In this document: positions 9,248 through 47,689 of the stretch, piece after piece
How positions within the stretch are numbered: the first letter of the stretch is position 1
How the letters are laid out: each line of letters opens with the position of its first letter
Assembly (NCBI RefSeq): GCF_900103975.1
Contig: NZ_FNIR01000012.1
Span: forward strand, 1 to 64,000
Source: Klenkia soli
GTDB lineage: Bacteria; Actinomycetota; Actinomycetes; Mycobacteriales; Geodermatophilaceae
Length of the DNA: 64,000 nucleotides
Reading direction: 5' to 3'
Notes under the pieces: generated by a model
What the model was told of the DNA's origin: nothing
What the model saw: only the letters and a program-made list of their open reading frames with translations
The model's database searches: none
Translations under genes and position numbers: made by a program

Positions 9248-9429
9248 GCGGTGAGACGGTAACCCGCGCACCCCACCCGTCCCACGGGTCCCAGATCGGC
9301 GGGGTCGCCGGTGTGGCGAGCGGACCGGTCCCTCCGTCGTCCCTAGGTTCGCAGGCACGCCACCGCAGGACCGGCCGCCGACGCCCGGACCGACGCACCC
9401 CGAGCCCATCGTCACCCCCGGAGTACACC

Positions 9430-9705
9430 GTGATCCGTCTCAAGAAGTCCCCCGCCGACGTCGCCGTCACCTTCGCCCTCGACGAGCAGGCCGCCCCCGG
9501 CCCGGTCTCCGTCGTCGGCGACTTCAACGGCTGGACCCCCGGCACCCACACCCTGAAGAAGCGCAGCAACGGCACCCGCAGCGTCGTCGTCAAGCTGCCG
9601 GTCGGCGAGCAGGTCCGCTTCCGCTACCTGGCCGACGGCGGCGTGTGGCTGGACGACCCGCAGGCCCACGCCCACGACGAGCAGGGCTCGCTGCTGCACC
9701 TGTAG
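9430..9705 (+). CDS. Stand-alone isoamylase N-terminal / CBM48-like domain protein
   Basis: The 91-residue protein is made of one early-set domain. The glycogen-binding-type signature SVVGDFNGWTPGTHTLKKR is followed by FRYLADGGVWLDDPQAHAHD, matching CBM48/AMPK-beta-like domains of branching and debranching enzymes. No catalytic domain is attached. Such free-standing proteins are common in actinobacteria and of unclear role; polysaccharide binding is the inference. The GTG start at 9430 gives an intact domain. A 21-bp perfect palindrome follows immediately as terminator. The 182 bases upstream hold only a small hairpin (9275-9289). Confidence 0.85.
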   Translation: MIRLKKSPADVAVTFALDEQAAPGPVSVVGDFNGWTPGTHTLKKRSNGTRSVVVKLPVGEQVRFRYLADGGVWLDDPQAHAHDEQGSLLHL

Positions 9706-9714
9706 AGCCACGCA

Positions 9715-9756
9715 CGACGGAGCCCCGTACCGCAGCTGCGGTACGGGGCTCCGTCG
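9715..9756. terminator. Very strong bidirectional hairpin
   Basis: The sequence is palindromic over 42 bases: 9715-9735 is the exact complement of 9736-9756, with the core CCGCAGCTGCGG. It begins 9 bases after the CBM48-like stop. Without a T-run it is an actinobacterial-type intrinsic terminator and should insulate this gene from the small membrane gene downstream. Confidence 0.8.
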
Positions 9757-9834
9757 CGTCCGGGGTGGCGAGACCGCCCGGTCCCGGTGCACACTCCCCC
9801 TCCACCCTCGGGGGTGGGTACCGGGGGGTGCGCG

Positions 9835-9969
9835 ATGGGTGAGGTGCTGCTGGTCGGGATGGCCCTGGGGGCGCTCGGCGGGGGCTGGATCGGCTACTGG
9901 CTCGGCCAGGTCCGGGCCGCGAGCCGGGCGGCGGGCAACACCTACCGCTCGGTCCGCGGGAAGGGGTGA
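9835..9969 (+). CDS. 44-residue predicted membrane protein
   Basis: The short ORF has one hydrophobic segment with a glycine-zipper look (LLVGMALGALGGGWIGYWLG, residues 5-24), then a basic C-terminus (RVRGKG-like end, YRSVRGKG). ATG 9835 is preceded by GGGGGG at 6 bases. It lies between the strong palindrome and the convergent desaturase stop at 9985. The length, ribosome site and clear topology argue for a real gene, but I know no family for it. Confidence 0.55.
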   Translation: MGEVLLVGMALGALGGGWIGYWLGQVRAASRAAGNTYRSVRGKG

Positions 9970-9984
9970 CCCCCGCCCGGCGAC

Positions 9985-11187
9985 TCAGGCGGCGCGCTGC
10001 GCCCGGTCGTAGGCGCGGCGGACCTTGGGCCCACCGGTGGTCAGCTTGTACAGCTGGGCCACCTGCTGCGGGGCGTTCTTCGGGGTGGTCGCGGCCATCC
10101 AGCCGTTGGGCAGCGACAGCCGGAAGACCTTGTGCCACGCGCTCGCGACCTGCTTGGGCAGCGACGCGGTGTGGTACCGCAGGCCGTACTCGTCGAAGAT
10201 CGCCTTGACCTTCGGGGCGATCTCGGCGTAGCGGTTGCTCGGCAGGTCGGGGAACAGGTGGTGCTCGACCTGGTGCGACAGGTTGCCGGTCATGATGTGC
10301 ATGGCCTTCGAGCCCGAGATGTTCGCCGAGCCCAGCATCTGGCGCAGGTACCACTCACCGCGGGACTCGCCCTCGATGGAGGTCTTCTCGTAGGTCTCGA
10401 CACCCTCGGGGAAGTGCCCGCACATGATCACCGAGTGCGACCACAGGTTGCGCACCAGGTTGGCCACGAAGTTGGCGGCCAGGGTGGGCACGAAGCTCGG
10501 GCCCGACAGCGCGGGGTGCACCAGGTAGTCCTTGGTCGCCTGCTTGCGGATCTTGCCCAGCACCTGCTTGGCGGCGGCCTTGAACTTCGGGTCCTTGCGA
10601 CGCTCGGGGGTGGCCAGGTTCTTGCCCAGCTCGAGGTCGTAGGCGGCGATGCCGTACTCGAAGAAGCACGCGTTGACGAAGTTCCACAGCGGCTGCGCCA
10701 GGTACAGCGGGATCCACTTCTGGTCCTCGTCGACCCGCATGATCCCGTAGCCGAGGTCGTTGTCCTTGCCGATCACGTTCGTGTAGGTGTGGTGCAGCTC
10801 GTTGTGCGAGTGCTTCCACTGCGCGGCCGGGCTGGCCATGTCCCACTCCCACGTCGTGGAGTGGATCTTCGGGTCGCGCATCCAGTCCCACTGGCCGTGC
10901 AGGATGTTGTGCCCGATCTCCATGTTCTCGAGGATCTTGGCGACCGACAGGCCCGCTGTGCCGAGGATCCAGGCCGGGGGGAACTTCGAGAGCAGCAGCA
11001 CCGCGCGGCTGGCCAGCTCGAGCTTGCGCTGGACGTCGATGACCTTGCGGATGTAGGCCGCGTCGTCGGCCCCGCGGCTGTCGGCGATCTCCTTGCGGAT
11101 CGCGTCCAGGCGGCGGCCGATCTCCTCGACGTCGTCGGCGGACAGGTGGTCGATCGGGCTGGTGGGCTTGCTCTGCAGTGCGGTCAC
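9985..11187 (-). CDS. Membrane acyl-CoA (DesA3-type) fatty acid desaturase
   Basis: The 400-residue integral membrane di-iron desaturase has the three histidine boxes: HNILHGQ, HSHNELHHT and HQVEHH. It would introduce a cis double bond into stearoyl/acyl-CoA using electrons from the adjacent reductase. In mycobacteria the equivalent pair is Rv3230c-Rv3229c (DesA3), in the same order. GTG 11187 has GAGGAG at good spacing, while the longer upstream reading has no ribosome site. It is the second gene of a two-gene operon, 46 bases downstream of the reductase. Confidence 0.92.
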   Translation of the reverse strand: MTALQSKPTSPIDHLSADDVEEIGRRLDAIRKEIADSRGADDAAYIRKVIDVQRKLELASRAVLLLSKFPPAWILGTAGLSVAKILENMEIGHNILHGQWDWMRDPKIHSTTWEWDMASPAAQWKHSHNELHHTYTNVIGKDNDLGYGIMRVDEDQKWIPLYLAQPLWNFVNACFFEYGIAAYDLELGKNLATPERRKDPKFKAAAKQVLGKIRKQATKDYLVHPALSGPSFVPTLAANFVANLVRNLWSHSVIMCGHFPEGVETYEKTSIEGESRGEWYLRQMLGSANISGSKAMHIMTGNLSHQVEHHLFPDLPSNRYAEIAPKVKAIFDEYGLRYHTASLPKQVASAWHKVFRLSLPNGWMAATTPKNAPQQVAQLYKLTTGGPKVRRAYDRAQRAA

Positions 11188-35929: not shown

Positions 35930-36114
35930 GCGCAGCTGGTCCGGCCGCCGCGAGGTGGCCGGGGCAAGAGGGAACCCGGTGCGAGTCCGGGACTGCCCCG
36001 CAGCGGTGAGCAGGAACGACCGCCGTCAACGAAGCACTGGGTGCACCAGCACCTGGGAAGCGACGGCCAGTAGGTGGGTCCCCGGGCCCGTGCCCGCGAG
36101 TCCGAAGACCTGCC
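35930..36114 (+). ncRNA. Cobalamin (B12/AdoCbl) riboswitch
   Basis: The region holds the conserved core AAGAGGGAACCCGGTGCGAG, continues with TCCGGGACTGCCCCGCAGCG, and closes with the B12 box GAGTCCGAAGACCTGCC (36098-36114). The 5' segment GGCGCAGCTGGTC can pair with GACCTGCC to close the central junction (P1). All sequence hallmarks of the class are present. It lies 134 bases before the start of the transporter operon, so high cobalamin should shut off that operon. Ends are approximate. The rest of the 408-base gap (35840-36247) shows no gene. Confidence 0.95.
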
Positions 36115-36247
36115 AGCCGTGGCCGCGCGGGACCTCCGCGTGGTCGGTCGGCGACCTCGTGGGCGGGTCCGGACGACGGCGGGTCACCCCTGCCCGGTCT
36201 CCCCCCGCGGTGCCGCAGACCCCCTGCCGCTCGCGAGGAGAGAGCCG

Positions 36248-37714
36248 TTGAGACGCACCGCCCTGGGCATCACCGCCCTGCTGGCCCTGACCGCCTGCGG
36301 GGGCGGCACGACCGCCGCGGGCAGCGACCGCATCCGGTTGGCCTACGCCTTCGTGCCGGTCGCCGGGCTGTCGCCCTACAGCGACGACGCCGTGACCGGC
36401 TACGGGATCGGGGCCACCGAGACGCTCGTCAAGCTGGACCCGGCCGGCGCCCCCCAGCCGCTGCTGGCCGAGTCCTGGACCCAGGTCGACCCGTTGACCT
36501 GGCGGTTCGACCTGCGCGACGACGTCACCTTCCAGGACGGGACGGCGATGACCGCCGACGTGGTGGCCGCGGGCCTGCAGCACGCGGTCGACGCCGACCC
36601 CACCCCGCGGGCGCTGTCCGGGGTGGACCTCTCGGTCGCCGTGGCCGACGAGGACACCCTGACCCTCACCACCGCCGCGCCGGACCCGGTGCTGCCCCAG
36701 CGGCTGACCTCCCCGGAGCTGGTGGTGCTCTCCCCCGGCGCCTACGCCGACCCGTCGTCCCCGGACCTGGTCGGCACCGGAACCGGGCCCTACGAGCTGG
36801 TCTCGGTCGACGGCACGACCGGCGCCGAGCTCGACGCCTACGCCGGTTACTGGGGCGGCACCCCGGCCGCCGCCGGGGTCGACGTCCGCTTCCTCTCCGA
36901 GGGCGGTTCCCGGACGGCGGCCCTGCGCGCCGACGAGGTGGACGTCGCGCAAGCGGTCCCGGTCTCGCAGATCGGCACGCTGGGCGCCGACGACGAGCTG
37001 CAGTCGGTGCCGCTCCCCCGCACCGTGTCGGTGCACCTGACCCAGACCTCGCCGGTGTTCGCCGACCCGGGCCTGCGCGAGGCCGCCCGGCAGGCGATCG
37101 CCGGGTTGGACATCGCCGGCACCGTGTACGAGGGCCAGGCCGACGCCCCCGAGGGCCTGTTCGGGCCGACGTCGACCTGGGCCGCGGACCGGCAGCCCCC
37201 CGACCACCCGACCGCCACCGCGCCGAGCGGGCAGGCGATCACGCTGGCCACCTTCTCCGACCGGGCCGAGCTGCCCGAGGTGGCCGCGGCGGTCGCCGAC
37301 GCGCTGCGCACCGCCGGCTTCGACGTCGACCTGCGGGTCGGGCTCTACACCGACATGGAGGCCGACTACCTCGCCGGCACGTACGACGCCGTCCTCATGA
37401 GCCGGTCCTACGGCCAGGACACCGCCGACCCGCTGTCCTACCTGTCCTCGGACTTCGGCTGCGCCGGGGGCTACGACCTGTCCCGCTACTGCGACCCCGC
37501 CGTCGACGCGCAGCTCGCCGCCGGCTCGCCGCTGGCCGACGTCGACGCCCGCAACCAGGTCGCGCTCGCCGTCGAGCGCACCGTGCTGGGCGCCGACGCC
37601 GTGGTGCCCGTCGTGCACGACCGCACCCGGTTCGGGGTGTCCCAGCGGGTGGCCGGGCTGGCCGCCGACCCGTGGGAGCGGTCGATCATCACCGCCGACA
37701 CGTCGGTGGGCTGA
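36248..37714 (+). CDS. Dpp/NikA-type substrate-binding lipoprotein under B12 control
   Basis: The 488-residue SBP_bac_5 family protein has a lipoprotein signal (TALGITALLALTACGGG, lipobox LTAC) and the family motif SWTQVDPLTWRFDLRDDVTF with FQDGTAMTADVV. TTG 36248 is the start; GAGGAG lies 7 bases upstream, and no ATG/GTG alternative fits. Being the first gene after a cobalamin riboswitch, it probably binds cobalt, nickel-like metal chelates or a corrinoid rather than peptides. It is followed after 5 bases by the ATPases and the fused permease. Confidence 0.9.
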   Translation: MRRTALGITALLALTACGGGTTAAGSDRIRLAYAFVPVAGLSPYSDDAVTGYGIGATETLVKLDPAGAPQPLLAESWTQVDPLTWRFDLRDDVTFQDGTAMTADVVAAGLQHAVDADPTPRALSGVDLSVAVADEDTLTLTTAAPDPVLPQRLTSPELVVLSPGAYADPSSPDLVGTGTGPYELVSVDGTTGAELDAYAGYWGGTPAAAGVDVRFLSEGGSRTAALRADEVDVAQAVPVSQIGTLGADDELQSVPLPRTVSVHLTQTSPVFADPGLREAARQAIAGLDIAGTVYEGQADAPEGLFGPTSTWAADRQPPDHPTATAPSGQAITLATFSDRAELPEVAAAVADALRTAGFDVDLRVGLYTDMEADYLAGTYDAVLMSRSYGQDTADPLSYLSSDFGCAGGYDLSRYCDPAVDAQLAAGSPLADVDARNQVALAVERTVLGADAVVPVVHDRTRFGVSQRVAGLAADPWERSIITADTSVG

Positions 37715-37719
37715 GCCGC

Positions 37720-38460
37720 GTGCTCGTCGAGGTCACCGGGCTCGCCGTCACGGCCGGGGACCGTCGGCTGGTCGGCCCGCTGGACCTCGCGGTGGCCGAG
37801 GGCGAGCGGGTCGGCCTGGTCGGACCGTCGGGGTCGGGCAAGTCGCTGACCGTGGCGGCGGTGCTCGGCGAGGTGCCCGCCGACCTGCGGGTGAGCGGTG
37901 CGGTCCGGGTGGCCGGTCGTCCGGCCGGCGACCCGTCGCTGCGCGGCCGGGTCGCCGGGGCGCTGTTCCAGGACAGCGCCACCGCGCTGGACCCGCTGGC
38001 CCGGGTGGGTGCGCAGCTGGCCGGCCCCGCCCGGCGCCTGCACGCCCTGACCCGCGCCGCGGCCCGCGTGCAGGCGCGCGAGGACCTGGCCCGGCTGGGG
38101 TTCGCCGACCCCGAGGACGTCGCCCGGGCGTGGCCGGCGACCCTGTCCGGTGGTCAGCGGCAGCGCGTGGCACTGGCCCTGGCGCTGGCCGGGCGGCCCC
38201 GGCTGCTGGTCGCCGACGAGCCCACGACGGCGCTGGACACCGTCAGCCAGGCCGCCGTGCTGGACCTGGTCGACCGGCTCGCCCCCGCCCTGCTGCTGGT
38301 CAGCCACGACCTGGCCGTGGTCGCCCGCTGCTGCACCCGCGTGCTGGTCCTGTCCGACGGCCGGGTGGTCGAGGAGGGGGCGACCGCGGCCGTGCTCGCC
38401 GCGCCGCAGCACCCCGTGACCCGCGCGCTGGTGGCCGCCGCCCGGGCCGGGCCGTCGTGA
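37720..38460 (+). CDS. ABC ATPase, DppD/NikD type
   Basis: The 246-residue ATPase has Walker A GPSGSGKSLT, signature LSGGQRQRVALALAL, Walker B RLLVADEPTTALD and H-loop SHDLA. It is shorter than typical DppD (~320) and lacks the C-terminal Fe-S/oligopeptide tail, as in NikD. GTG 37720 lies 5 bases after the binding-protein stop. It pairs with the following ATPase for the heterodimeric engine of the riboswitch-controlled importer. Confidence 0.9.
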   Translation: MLVEVTGLAVTAGDRRLVGPLDLAVAEGERVGLVGPSGSGKSLTVAAVLGEVPADLRVSGAVRVAGRPAGDPSLRGRVAGALFQDSATALDPLARVGAQLAGPARRLHALTRAAARVQAREDLARLGFADPEDVARAWPATLSGGQRQRVALALALAGRPRLLVADEPTTALDTVSQAAVLDLVDRLAPALLLVSHDLAVVARCCTRVLVLSDGRVVEEGATAAVLAAPQHPVTRALVAAARAGPS

Positions 38461-39194
38461 TCGAGGTCCACGGGGTGGTCCGGCGCTACCGCCGGCACGG
38501 CGCGCCCGCGCTGGACGGCGTCGACCTGGAGCTCCCCGCCGGGCGCGACCTGGCGCTGGTGGGCAGCTCGGGGGCCGGCAAGAGCACCCTGCTGCGCGTG
38601 CTGCTGGGCCTCGAGCCCGCCGACGCCGGCACGGTGCGGGTGCTCGGCCGGCCCGTGGCCCCCGGGTCGGCCCGGTCGCTGCGCTGGCTGCGGGCGGCGG
38701 TCGGGGTGGTCGCGCAGGACGCCGGCAGCTCGCTGGACCCGCGCTGGCCGGTCGGCCGCAGCGTCGCCGAGCCGCTGCGGCTGCTGGACCTGCCCGGTGA
38801 CCCCGCCGCTCGGGTCCGCGAGGTGCTGACCGCGGTCGACGTCGACCCCGGCGCCGCCGACCGGCGGCCCGCGGCGTTCTCCGGTGGGCAGCGGCAGCGG
38901 ATCGCGCTGGCCCGGGCCCTGGTCCACCGCCCGACGCTGCTGGTCGCCGACGAGCTGCTCTCGGGGGCGGACGCCGTCCTCCGCGGCCACCTGCTGGCGC
39001 TGCTGACGGGGCTCGGGACCCAGCTGCTGCTGGTCACCCACGACCTCGCGCTGGCCGGCGCGCTGGCCGGCGACGTCGCCGTCCTCGCGGCCGGCCGGGT
39101 GGTCGAGCACGGTCCCGCGGTCGACGTCCTGCGCGCTCCGGTCGCCGCCGAGACCCGGCTGCTGCGCGACGCGGTGCTGCGGTTGCCGGCATGA
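38457..39194 (+). CDS. ABC ATPase, DppF/NikE type
   Basis: The 245-residue ATPase has Walker A GSSGAGKSTL, signature FSGGQRQRIALARAL, and H-loop VTHDLA. The Walker B region reads TLLVADELLSGAD, where the usual DEPxSxLD has become DELLSGAD, so Pro is lost but the catalytic Glu stays. GTG 38457 overlaps the previous TGA (GTGA), and its own TGA overlaps the permease ATG (ATGA), so the operon is tightly coupled. Confidence 0.9.
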   Translation: MIEVHGVVRRYRRHGAPALDGVDLELPAGRDLALVGSSGAGKSTLLRVLLGLEPADAGTVRVLGRPVAPGSARSLRWLRAAVGVVAQDAGSSLDPRWPVGRSVAEPLRLLDLPGDPAARVREVLTAVDVDPGAADRRPAAFSGGQRQRIALARALVHRPTLLVADELLSGADAVLRGHLLALLTGLGTQLLLVTHDLALAGALAGDVAVLAAGRVVEHGPAVDVLRAPVAAETRLLRDAVLRLPA

Positions 39195-40888
39195 GGGGGC
39201 TGCGCAGCGGGCTGGCGGTGGTCGGCACCGCACTGGCCGTCGTCCTGCTCCTGGCGGCGCTGCCGTGGCTGCGCGGGGAGGACCCGGCGGTCACCGTCTT
39301 CCGGGCCCTCTACGCCGAGCGGACCCGGGACCCCGCCGTCGTCGAGGCGCTGCGGGTCGACCTCGACCTGCCCGCCGGGCCGGTGTCGGGGGCGTGGCAG
39401 TGGCTGTCCCGGGCCCTGCGCGGCGACCTGGGCGTGAGCTGGGTGGACCGCGAGCCGGTGGCCCCCGAGGTGCTGCGGGCGGTCGGGGTCTCCGCCGGGC
39501 TGGCCGGGGCCGCGGTCGGGGTCGCCGTCCTCGTCGCCGCGCTCCTGCTGGTGCCGGCGACGGTGCGCGCGGTGCGCCGAGGCCGGCCACCGGGCGGGTG
39601 GGCGCCCACCGCGCTGGCCGCCGTCCCCGAGGTGGTGCTCGGCGTGCTGCTGCTGACCGGGGCCGCGGTCGGGCTGGGCTGGTTCCCGACCTCGGGGTGG
39701 GGCACCCCGGCCCAGGTCGTGCTCCCCGCGCTGGCGCTCGGGCTGCCCGGCGGTGGGTTGCTGGCCCGGGTGCTGGGGAGCACGGTCGCCGCCGCGGTGG
39801 CCGAGCCCTGGGTGCGCACCGCCCGGGTCAACGGCGCGGGCACCAGCGCGGTCGCCCGGTCGGTGCTGCGCCGGGCGGTCGCCGTCGCGGCACCCCAGCT
39901 GGCGCTGGTCGGGGTGGGGGTGCTCGGGTCGTCGGTCGCCGTCGAGCAGCTGTTCGCGGTGCCCGGCGCGGGCCGGACGGCGTTGCGGGCGGTGCTCGCC
40001 CTGGACCTGCCGCTGCTGCAGGGCTGCGTGCTGGCGCTCGTGCTGCTGGGCCTGCTCGTCGGGCTCGCCGGCGGTGCCGCCCACCGGTGGCTGCTGCGCC
40101 CGGCCCTGGGCGCCGGGGACCTCGTGGCGCCCGTGCCGGTGGCGGCGCGCGGCACCGCCGTCCCGCTGGTCGCCGCCGGGGTGCTGCTGGTCGGGGTCGC
40201 CGCGGGGGTGCTGCGGGACGGGGCGGTGGTGCTCGGCGACCGGTTGGCCCCGCCTTCCTGGTCGCACCCGCTGGGGGCCGACGCCGTCGGGCGGGACGTG
40301 CTGGCCCGCTTCGGTGCGGGGGCGCTGCTGACCGTCGGGGTCGGCGTCGCGGTCACCGCGCTGGCCACGGTGCTGGCCCTGCTGGTCGCGGCGACCGCCC
40401 GGGACACTCGGCCGGGGGTGCCCGACGTGCTCAACGCGCTGCCCGGGGTGCTGGTCGGCGTGGTGCTGGCGGCCGTCACCGGGCCGGGCCTGCTGCCGGC
40501 GGCGCTGGGCGTGCTGGTCGTGGCGTGGGTGCCGCTGGCGGTGCACGGCCGGTCGCTGGTGGTGCTGGGCCTGGCCGGGGCGCCGGTGCGGGCCGCGGTG
40601 CTGGCCGGGGCCGGGCGGGGCCGGGTGCTGCGGTCGCACGTGCTGCCCGGCGTCGTCGGCCCCCTGGTGCGGCACGCGCTGGCCCGGGTGCCCTCGGCGT
40701 CGCTGGCCCTGGCGTCGCTGAGCTTCCTGGGCCTGGGGGCGGCCACCGACTCCCCGGAGTGGGGCGCGATGCTCGCCGAGGGCCTGCCCTACCTCGAGCG
40801 CGCCCCGTGGGTGGCCGGCGCCCCCGTCGTCGGCCTCCTGCTGCTCGGCGTCGTCGCGGGGACGGCGACCGCACCCCGCCGACGCTGA
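39191..40888 (+). CDS. Fused DppB-DppC type ABC permease
   Basis: The 565-residue chain joins two permeases that are normally separate. Residues ~1-300 are DppB-like, with the EAA-loop region EPWVRTARVNGAGTSAVARS and LGSSVAVEQLFAVPGAGRTA. Residues ~310-565 are DppC-like, with HPLGADAVGRDVLARFGAGA, RSHVLPGVVGPLVRHALAR and SFLGLGAATDSPEWGAML. No stop or frameshift lies between the halves. ATG 39191 overlaps the upstream ATPase stop. The single protein can supply both transmembrane halves of the importer. Confidence 0.88.
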   Translation: MRGLRSGLAVVGTALAVVLLLAALPWLRGEDPAVTVFRALYAERTRDPAVVEALRVDLDLPAGPVSGAWQWLSRALRGDLGVSWVDREPVAPEVLRAVGVSAGLAGAAVGVAVLVAALLLVPATVRAVRRGRPPGGWAPTALAAVPEVVLGVLLLTGAAVGLGWFPTSGWGTPAQVVLPALALGLPGGGLLARVLGSTVAAAVAEPWVRTARVNGAGTSAVARSVLRRAVAVAAPQLALVGVGVLGSSVAVEQLFAVPGAGRTALRAVLALDLPLLQGCVLALVLLGLLVGLAGGAAHRWLLRPALGAGDLVAPVPVAARGTAVPLVAAGVLLVGVAAGVLRDGAVVLGDRLAPPSWSHPLGADAVGRDVLARFGAGALLTVGVGVAVTALATVLALLVAATARDTRPGVPDVLNALPGVLVGVVLAAVTGPGLLPAALGVLVVAWVPLAVHGRSLVVLGLAGAPVRAAVLAGAGRGRVLRSHVLPGVVGPLVRHALARVPSASLALASLSFLGLGAATDSPEWGAMLAEGLPYLERAPWVAGAPVVGLLLLGVVAGTATAPRRR

Positions 40889-45531: not shown

Positions 45532-45742
45532 TCGACGCCGCCTCGGTACAGCGTTGATCAGGGGGGTGCACGGAACTCCCGCCTCCCCGGGCAGATCTGG
45601 TGCGGGAGGACGGACCACGGGGCGGGAGGACAGATGCAACCATCTCGTCACCGCGAGCAGCCCCGCTCCAGCAGGAAGTGTGCTGGTCAGCGGTGCGCTC
45701 GGGGGGCCCGGAACTGTCCTACCCCTCTGGTGGACTGGGTCC
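45532..45742. other. Intergenic region with hairpin and DUF222 upstream element (copy B)
   Basis: I see no gene here. CTCCCGC (45576-45582) and GCGGGAG (45602-45608) can form a 7-bp stem with a 19-base loop after the deaminase gene. GCGGGAGGAC occurs again a little downstream. TGTCCTACCCCTC at 45715-45727 is the counterpart of the element before the DUF222/HNH gene at 17.5 kb. Confidence 0.45.
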
Positions 45743-47689
45743 ATGACGGCGACGGCGGAGCGGTTCTGGGTGGAGGTCACCCCGCGCCGTGCTGCCGTCC
45801 GCACCGATGGCCCGGTGGTGCTGCCGCGGTTGACCGGGCTGGCTGCGGCGGCTGGTCTGGAGGGTGCCGAGCTGGATGCGGAGTTGGCGTCGGTGCACCG
45901 GCAGATGTCGGCGCTGGCGGCGTACCAGGCCGGTCTGGTGGAGCGCAAGGCCACCCAGGGGGCTCAGCACCCGTTGCCGTTCGCGCCCGGTGCCCGCACC
46001 GACACCCGCCCCGACGCCGATGACCCGTCCCTGCAGGCGGCCGATGACTTCCTGCCCGAGGAGGTCGCGGTCCTGCTGAACATGTCGGTCGCCTCGGCCC
46101 GGTACCTCGTGGACGACGACCTGGCGCTGGTGCGGCAGCTGCCGGTGGTGTGGCATGCGTTGGCCGATGGCCGGATCGACGAGGCCCGGGCGAGGGTGAT
46201 CGTGAAGGCGTTGCGCTACCAGGCCGCCTCGTGGGGTGGGCCGGTGGACGACACGGTGATCGATGCGATCGCCGCCCGCGGGGTGGAGTGGGCGGCGGCC
46301 GGGTGCCCGCCGACGACGTTGCGGGAGCGGATCGACGCTGCGTTGATCGCGGCTGATCCCGAGGCGGCGGATCGGCGGAAGGCGCTGCGCAAGCGGGAGG
46401 CCGGGGTGCGGGTGACCGGCACTGGTGACGGGTTGGCCGATCTGCGGGCCACGGACCTGGAGGCCGCCGACGCGAAGTTGGTGAAGGCGCAGCTGGGCGC
46501 CTTCGTGCGCAAGCTGAAGGCCGATGGGGACACCCGCCCGTCCGGGGAGATCGAGATCGAGCTGGTGGTCACGTTGCTGACCCGGCCGTGGGAGCAGCTG
46601 GACCCGGTGATCGCACACCTGACCATCAACGCCGACCTGGCCGACCTGCTGGTCCCCGACCTGAGCGACCTCATCGCCGACGCCGACAGAGCCGCTGAGA
46701 GCGACGCCGACAGCGACAGCGACACGGACGTCGACGTCCATCCTGGCTTCGGACCGACCGCCGACCCCGACGAAACCGCCGATGCCGACGGTGGGGATGT
46801 CGACGACGGCGACGTCGAGGCCTACGCCGCGCCCGCAGACGACGCCGGAGCCACGGCTGGGACCGCCGCTGCCCCGACCGGGGACGGGGGCGCGCGGCCG
46901 ACCGACCCCGATGAACCCGATGACGGGACAGGTGTGCCCGTCGCATGGACCGGTGTGTCCGGAGCCGGGACCGCGGTGCCCGGTGCAGGTCCACCGGACG
47001 GGACCGGTGTGTCCACGGGAGGGACGAGTCTGCCAGCGGCAGGTCCGCACGGTGACCGGGCAAGTCTGCTCGCCGCGGGTCCAGGAGCCTGCAGGGGTGC
47101 GCAGGTGGGGCACGTGGATGGGCTGCCGGTCACCCCGGCCGCGGTCCGGTCCCTGCTGACCTGGATCGACGCCCTGGGCCTGACCCACCCCGACGGCGGC
47201 GGAGAGCTCGCCTTCACCATCACCGGCCACGGCGGTCGGCTGCTCGCCGTCGCCACCCCCGAGGAACTCGCCGCCGCCGCCAACGCCGGCCGCGGGATCG
47301 GACCACCACCAGCAGCACCGGGCTACACCCCCACAGCCGCCCAGTACCGGTACCTGCGCGCCCGCGACCGGCATTGCCGGTTCCCCGGCTGCCGCCAGGT
47401 CGCCCGAGCCTGCGACGCCGACCACGTCACCCGCTACGACCGCCACAACCCCGCTGCCGGCGGGCCCACCTGCGTCCGCAACCTGGCCATGCTCTGCCGC
47501 CGGCACCACCGGCTGAAGACCCACGCCCGCGGCTGGCGGTTCGCCGTGGACGCCGACGGCACCCTGCACGTCACCACACCCGGCGGCACCACCCGCACCA
47601 CCCGACCACCAGCCATGGGCGAGGTCCTCGACCTCGAGACCGGACCCCCACCGCGCTACGACCCCGCCGACGACCCACCGCCCTTCTGA
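45743..47689 (+). CDS. DUF222/HNH endonuclease-like (13E12-type) protein with long linker
   Basis: The 648-residue protein has DUF222 at ~20-310 (WHALADGRIDEARARVIVKA; KLKADGDTRPSGEIEIEL) and an HNH domain at ~535-600 (CRFPGCRQVARACDADHVT, then LAMLCRRHHRLKT). Between them residues ~310-450 form an acidic then Gly/Pro/Thr-rich low-complexity linker with repeated TGV and GTAVPGAGP-like units, absent from the 17.5-kb copy. ATG 45743 is the start. Zinc-binding and catalytic residues look complete. Cellular role unproven. Confidence 0.9.
   Translation: MTATAERFWVEVTPRRAAVRTDGPVVLPRLTGLAAAAGLEGAELDAELASVHRQMSALAAYQAGLVERKATQGAQHPLPFAPGARTDTRPDADDPSLQAADDFLPEEVAVLLNMSVASARYLVDDDLALVRQLPVVWHALADGRIDEARARVIVKALRYQAASWGGPVDDTVIDAIAARGVEWAAAGCPPTTLRERIDAALIAADPEAADRRKALRKREAGVRVTGTGDGLADLRATDLEAADAKLVKAQLGAFVRKLKADGDTRPSGEIEIELVVTLLTRPWEQLDPVIAHLTINADLADLLVPDLSDLIADADRAAESDADSDSDTDVDVHPGFGPTADPDETADADGGDVDDGDVEAYAAPADDAGATAGTAAAPTGDGGARPTDPDEPDDGTGVPVAWTGVSGAGTAVPGAGPPDGTGVSTGGTSLPAAGPHGDRASLLAAGPGACRGAQVGHVDGLPVTPAAVRSLLTWIDALGLTHPDGGGELAFTITGHGGRLLAVATPEELAAAANAGRGIGPPPAAPGYTPTAAQYRYLRARDRHCRFPGCRQVARACDADHVTRYDRHNPAAGGPTCVRNLAMLCRRHHRLKTHARGWRFAVDADGTLHVTTPGGTTRTTRPPAMGEVLDLETGPPPRYDPADDPPPF

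Follow-up and report, generated by a model that had tools for sequence, protein, structure and literature searches.

Nik-type importers behind cobalamin riboswitches have a precedent in clostridia, where B12-riboswitch control has been predicted for members of the NikABCDE family in Clostridium tetani and Desulfitobacterium hafniense (PMC2667541, its reference 47). Another described case is CbtJKL of Sinorhizobium meliloti, an ABC importer of cobalt that depends on a binding protein and is controlled by an AdoCbl riboswitch (PMC7689651). Cobalt acquisition for B12 in actinobacteria is only partly known. Here, we analyzed a 64-kb stretch of DNA from Klenkia soli (hereafter, the window), in which a cobalamin riboswitch precedes four genes of the peptide/nickel importer family. 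We favor, with a probability of roughly two in three, the reading that these genes encode a Nik/Opp-type importer of cobalt, probably in chelated form, which would be repressed by adenosylcobalamin. This reading is based on the conserved pairing of riboswitch and operon, the Zur boxes of relatives, the structural match to Staphylococcus aureus NikA, and a host predicted to make B12.

Searching the whole window against Rfam with cmscan resulted in a single match, the cobalamin aptamer RF00174 (76.3 bits, E 5e-17; gathering score 31.5). It contains the B12 box and the conserved core and lies 5' of and co-directional with a gene, as expected of a member of this family, and is predicted to act as a cobalamin-binding expression switch. 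The genes behind it are tightly arranged, with 4-nt overlaps between genes 2 and 3 (GTGA, the start of ATPase 2 overlapping the stop of ATPase 1) and between genes 3 and 4 (ATGA), and the flanking genes on both sides are on the opposite strand. Thus, the four genes constitute a single operon immediately 3' of the riboswitch, which most likely controls no gene beyond these four. The original prediction of a complete B12 riboswitch directly before a binding protein, two ATPases, and a permease was thereby borne out by the aptamer score, the B12 box, and the operon structure. Elsewhere in the window (45554-47689), a long frame with an HNH-like motif at its end (RDRHCRFPGC...DADHV) was read by eye as a DUF222/HNH protein.

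Table 1. Features of the riboswitch-operon locus and cobalamin riboswitches at other loci. Positions are those of the window unless a locus is named.
Feature	Position	Strand	Basis or remark
Cobalamin (AdoCbl-type) riboswitch aptamer, RF00174	35933..36120	+	cmscan
B12 box GCGAGTCCGAAGACCTGCC	36096..36114	+	sequence
Leader 3' of aptamer, presumed expression platform	36121..36247	+	alignment and consensus fold
Shine-Dalgarno GAGGAG, 7 nt 5' of TTG start	36235..36240	+	sequence
Substrate-binding lipoprotein, NikA/Opp5A-like (SBP family 5), TTG start, lipobox-like LTAC	36248..37714	+	Pfam SBP_bac_5, 181 bits
ABC ATPase 1, NikD/OppD-like	37720..38460	+	Pfam ABC_tran; Walker A GPSGSGKS, LSGGQ
ABC ATPase 2, NikE/OppF-like, GTG start	38457..39194	+	Pfam ABC_tran; Walker A GSSGAGKS, FSGGQ
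Fused permease, NikB/DppB-like half then NikC/DppC-like half, 565 aa	39191..40888	+	two BPD_transp_1 stretches
Cobalamin riboswitch before unfused Nik-type operon	L085 4811-5012; L188 10631-10815		
Host riboswitch before chlI/D-like chelatase gene, cobO, cbiA, and aminotransferase gene read as cobC			
Host riboswitch before cobN			
Host riboswitch before cbtB-cbtA			CbtB slightly under cut-off, CbtA clear

The gap between the end of the aptamer and the start of the binding-protein gene is 127 nt. Directly 3' of the aptamer, a hairpin (about 36121-36146) is kept in five orthologues (described below), with two stem pairs changed on both sides, and past this hairpin a stretch of the leader is conserved in the window and the orthologous loci L038 and L084. 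The letters of the B12 box core GAGTCCGAAGACCTGCC are the same in all five orthologues, and GCGAGGAGAG at the Shine-Dalgarno is conserved in all five as well. While the aptamer of the window shares 92.6-95.7% identity with those of two orthologues, the 60 nt 5' of it share only 56-65%. As established for this riboswitch class, binding of AdoCbl should switch the operon off. In most orthologues, the predicted folds place the Shine-Dalgarno in a paired region. This sequestering is strong in two orthologues (0 and 2 of 100 shuffles as high) and indistinguishable from that of shuffles in the other three, the window among them, whose leader fold was no better than shuffled controls. Translational control via sequestering of the Shine-Dalgarno is at most suggested by these folds, and the riboswitch of Mycobacterium tuberculosis metE, which works in such a translational, Shine-Dalgarno-sequestering mode (PMC11260477), may serve as a lead for the window leader.

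Altogether, the operon encodes a complete Dpp/Opp/Nik importer set, namely a family-5 binding protein, two OppD/F-type ATPases, and two BPD_transp_1 units in one chain. The permease of the original prediction is a fusion of both usual halves, with residues 10-293 matching Opp1B/Opp2B and residues 346-551 matching Opp2C (NCBIfam). Best NCBIfam matches were Opp5A_nikA for the binding protein (169 bits, cut-off 600), NikD for ATPase 1 (185 bits), and NikE for ATPase 2 (about 176 bits), all of them below cut-off. In particular, none of the NikABCDE equivalog models reached its cut-off (NikA 63.9 of 393 bits, NikB 107 of 447, NikC 93.5 of 358, NikD 185 of 319, NikE 175 of 333). According to Pfam, the proteins of the operon are not of the ECF type.

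Orthologues of the operon, the window included, were found in 5 of 112 genomes of the family; four of these belong to the window's genus, for which nine genomes were covered, and the fifth is that of Geodermatophilus chilensis. Their binding proteins are 70-84% identical, and identity falls from 70% to 50% for the next relatives. A search for the same pairing in other genomes had been proposed with the original prediction; RF00174 was found directly 5' of the operon in all five orthologues (76-90 bits), which rules out a chance riboswitch match. Among the neighbors of the window operon that were tested, three are kept at L084 and none at L038, L039, and L089, so that riboswitch and operon have remained paired in a minimum of two genomic settings and probably in four. 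Since the clade is present in only 5 of 112 family genomes, the operon is dispensable. Of the four genomes in the genus that have an orthologue, two carry CbiM as well, and a strict complementarity of the operon with CbiM was rejected on this ground. As a separate observation, one locus of Geodermatophilus chilensis (L169, 5960-12824) harbors three cobalamin riboswitches inside 7 kb.

A scan of named genomes resulted in 80 loci with relatives at 43-84%. In a tree of 103 distinct binding proteins from these and further loci, the five riboswitch-bearing ones formed one clade (SH-aLRT 99). Upstream regions were compared with the published Zur box consensus tGaNNatSatNNtCa of 15 bp (PMC5472717), where a Zur-type box was called at one mismatch or less and 430-bp windows of the same loci served as random control. 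Of the 97 operons lacking a B12 riboswitch, 42 have such a box, compared to about 2% of random windows; these 42 include all 31 Streptomyces loci on the tree, and the boxes are mostly located 35-135 bp 5' of the operon. The two-mismatch matches before 14 more operons are less sure, since a best match of this kind occurs in about 6% of random windows. Before the five operons of the riboswitch clade, no Zur box was found (best matches with 4-5 mismatches); the best match upstream of the window operon has 4 mismatches, as in random stretches. Furthermore, some relatives are located close to genes for Fur-family, ArsR, P-type ATPase, or ZnuA-like proteins (ArsR and ZnuA-like read from sequence only), and an MFS gene is common to 20 loci of relatives. 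Zur boxes and metal-gene neighbors thus point to transition metals, perhaps chelated, as cargo of the family, and the boxes themselves point to zinc elsewhere in the family. At loci L103-L168 (Streptomyces and others), the box lies about 100 bp before the binding-protein gene, and these operons are candidate importers of zinc or a zincophore. A gene resembling, by eye, one for a TauD-type dioxygenase was noted on the minus strand of L043 (about 9371-10180), between two divergent family operons.

These boxes, together with the NikA-like fold of the binding protein, would also agree with import of chelated zinc or nickel, which the riboswitch would raise at low B12, e.g., for a B12-independent zinc enzyme such as the methionine synthase MetE. 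However, full-length MetE was not found in the host, where Meth_synt_2 matched only weakly, in frames of 366-428 aa, and MetH is present, which weakens the case for zinc supply to MetE. Moreover, the window clade lacks a Zur box and shows binding-protein substitutions of its own. Thus, we regard zinc or nickel as an unlikely cargo of the window operon.

An AlphaFold model of the binding protein (pLDDT 89.4) revealed as its best matches in the PDB two S. aureus proteins, 3rqt (Z 41.0) and NikA 4xkr (Z 40.8; rmsd 2.9 over 446 residues), with most other proteins of this fold behind them at Z 32-37. Among the structural matches are also peptide binders and the SapA-heme complex (7ofw), and the modelled fold alone would not give the function. 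In a profile alignment, the ligand residues Arg137, Tyr402, and His416 of Escherichia coli NikA have no counterpart in the binding protein, so that the binding mode cannot be read off, while Arg97 possibly corresponds to Arg121 with a one-residue shift. Missing ligand residues and failed equivalog cut-offs together rule out that the operon is orthologous to NikABCDE, or its binding protein to E. coli NikA. The riboswitch clade is uniform at 27 positions at which it differs from the residue common to at least 75% of relatives, including residues 51, 53, 174, 263, 265, 366, 390, and 393. Gly53, for instance, stands against Arg in 97% of relatives, and an altered SRSYGQDTADP stretch adjoins the segment aligned with NikA Trp398-Tyr402. 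The clade-specific residues may lie in the binding pocket, and they offer a testable handle on the choice of metal or chelator.

The riboswitch was also detected before other Nik-type operons. A second, unfused operon of this type, whose binding protein is 32% identical to that of the window over part of its length, is preceded by a riboswitch in both family genomes having it (78.3 and 72.2 bits). In addition, a 44% relative in Arachnia propionica, encoded in an operon for two ATPases, an MFS protein, the binding protein, and a fused permease, has an aptamer (L138, 3999-4068) that ends about 50-75 nt before the first ATPase gene; at 30.6 bits (E 3.9e-6) it is just under the gathering score of 31.5 and is a probable cobalamin riboswitch. 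The Arachnia case stands apart from the window clade on the tree, where supported branches force two changes. Behind the long riboswitches retrieved from other actinobacteria, no further Nik-type operons were found. Several of the riboswitches examined there precede FecCD-type permease-like genes, as read from the sequence, and in the relative G153 CbiM lies behind the same long riboswitch form.

Transport of peptides or other organic solutes, with the riboswitch being incidental or serving an unrelated purpose, would fit the Pfam assignment, which gives only the broad peptide/nickel family, and the peptide binders among the structural matches. With the riboswitch present in five of five orthologues and on other Nik-type operons too, and with metal-regulator boxes in relatives, we consider this highly improbable. 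A further explanation is import of a corrinoid or its precursor (cobinamide, cobyrate, B12), where a Nik/Opp-type binding protein would take the place of BtuF. Such importers are often under cobalamin riboswitches, as the FecCD-type permease-like genes behind several of them in other actinobacteria illustrate, and family-5 binding proteins can hold a tetrapyrrole, as SapA does with heme. In contrast, the make-up of BtuFCD (FecCD permease and BtuF-type binding protein) is absent from the operon, which has SBP_bac_5 and BPD_transp_1 proteins instead. Moreover, the Zur-type boxes of relatives do not fit corrinoids, the binding protein is structurally closest to a nickel-chelate binder and to a related protein of S. 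aureus, and in the host, genes for de novo B12 synthesis lie behind riboswitches and four FecCD permeases are already encoded. Corrinoid import is therefore improbable to us. The suggestion of a non-classical transporter is thus best supported for cobalt or a cobalt chelate and has little support for a corrinoid precursor.

The host assembly (4.76 Mb, 25 contigs) contains four cobalamin riboswitches including that of the window, and based on the de novo B12 genes behind them (Table 1) the host is predicted to make B12. CbiM had no match in the host genome, and one NicO-type permease and the four FecCD permeases are not located at a riboswitch. A second fused-permease operon of the host (L044, 3632-9654, contig C14; permease 53% identical) includes an MFS gene and showed neither Zur box nor riboswitch.

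For import of cobalt, we propose that plentiful AdoCbl would bind the leader RNA and repress the operon. At low B12 levels, its genes would be expressed and cobalt would enter, most likely complexed with a small chelator, and would feed the host pathway (the CobN cobaltochelatase and other cob genes, also riboswitch-linked) to give more B12. Within a fused-permease family whose operons often follow a Zur box, this clade has a B12 riboswitch instead. Several points speak against cobalt: the Cbt and NicO transporters of the host could already supply it, CbiM is present in two orthologue-bearing genomes, the clade is dispensable, three NikA ligand residues lack a counterpart, and the Zur boxes of relatives point to zinc. 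One might speculate further that the cargo of the operon is the complex of a dedicated cobalt metallophore ("cobaltophore"), in which case one branch of the zincophore importers would have swapped zinc-dependent regulation for a B12 riboswitch and the zinc complex for a cobalt complex, but we hold this to be unlikely.

Control of a Dpp/Nik system by a B12 riboswitch is less unusual than initially thought, since the systems of C. tetani and D. hafniense had already been predicted (PMC2667541). What appears new is a fused-permease family with Zur-box relatives and an actinobacterial riboswitch-bearing branch; by title or abstract, none of the open-access papers found to combine Zur, the cobalamin riboswitch, cobalt, and ABC transporters treats this pairing, which is weak evidence. 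The B12-riboswitch control predicted for Nik-type importers of two clostridia thereby extends to actinobacteria, where the pairing occurs in two or three lineages that are separate from each other. One family with Zur-box branches and at least one B12-riboswitch branch also offers a natural comparison, in which the regulator hints at the metal.

Like the window operon, the C. tetani and D. hafniense systems are Nik-type importers behind cobalamin riboswitches, and they were set apart from the nickel-specific ones (PMC2667541). They are clostridial and were counted as NikA orthologues, whereas that of the window is actinobacterial and non-orthologous, with a fused permease and Zur-box relatives. 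S. aureus NikA (Opp5A; 4xkr, 4ofj) shares the fold and the best NCBIfam model with the window binding protein, which is, however, only 20% identical, far under the equivalog cut-off, and encoded with a fused permease under riboswitch control. The staphylopine importer CntABCDF (Opp1), a Nik/Opp-type importer of chelated metal, also resembles the window family, though the CntA model gave only 58 bits on the window binding protein (cut-off 800). Staphylopine clusters have an MFS gene (PMC7438024), as is found near many relatives of the window family but not near the window operon. CbiMNQO and CbtAB are likewise cobalt transporters under cobalamin riboswitches (cbtBA in the host, a CbiM gene in a relative), but they belong to protein families unrelated to those of the window and have no family-5 binding protein. 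Finally, the binding protein of CbtJKL is BtuF-like, while that of the window is of the Nik/Opp type.
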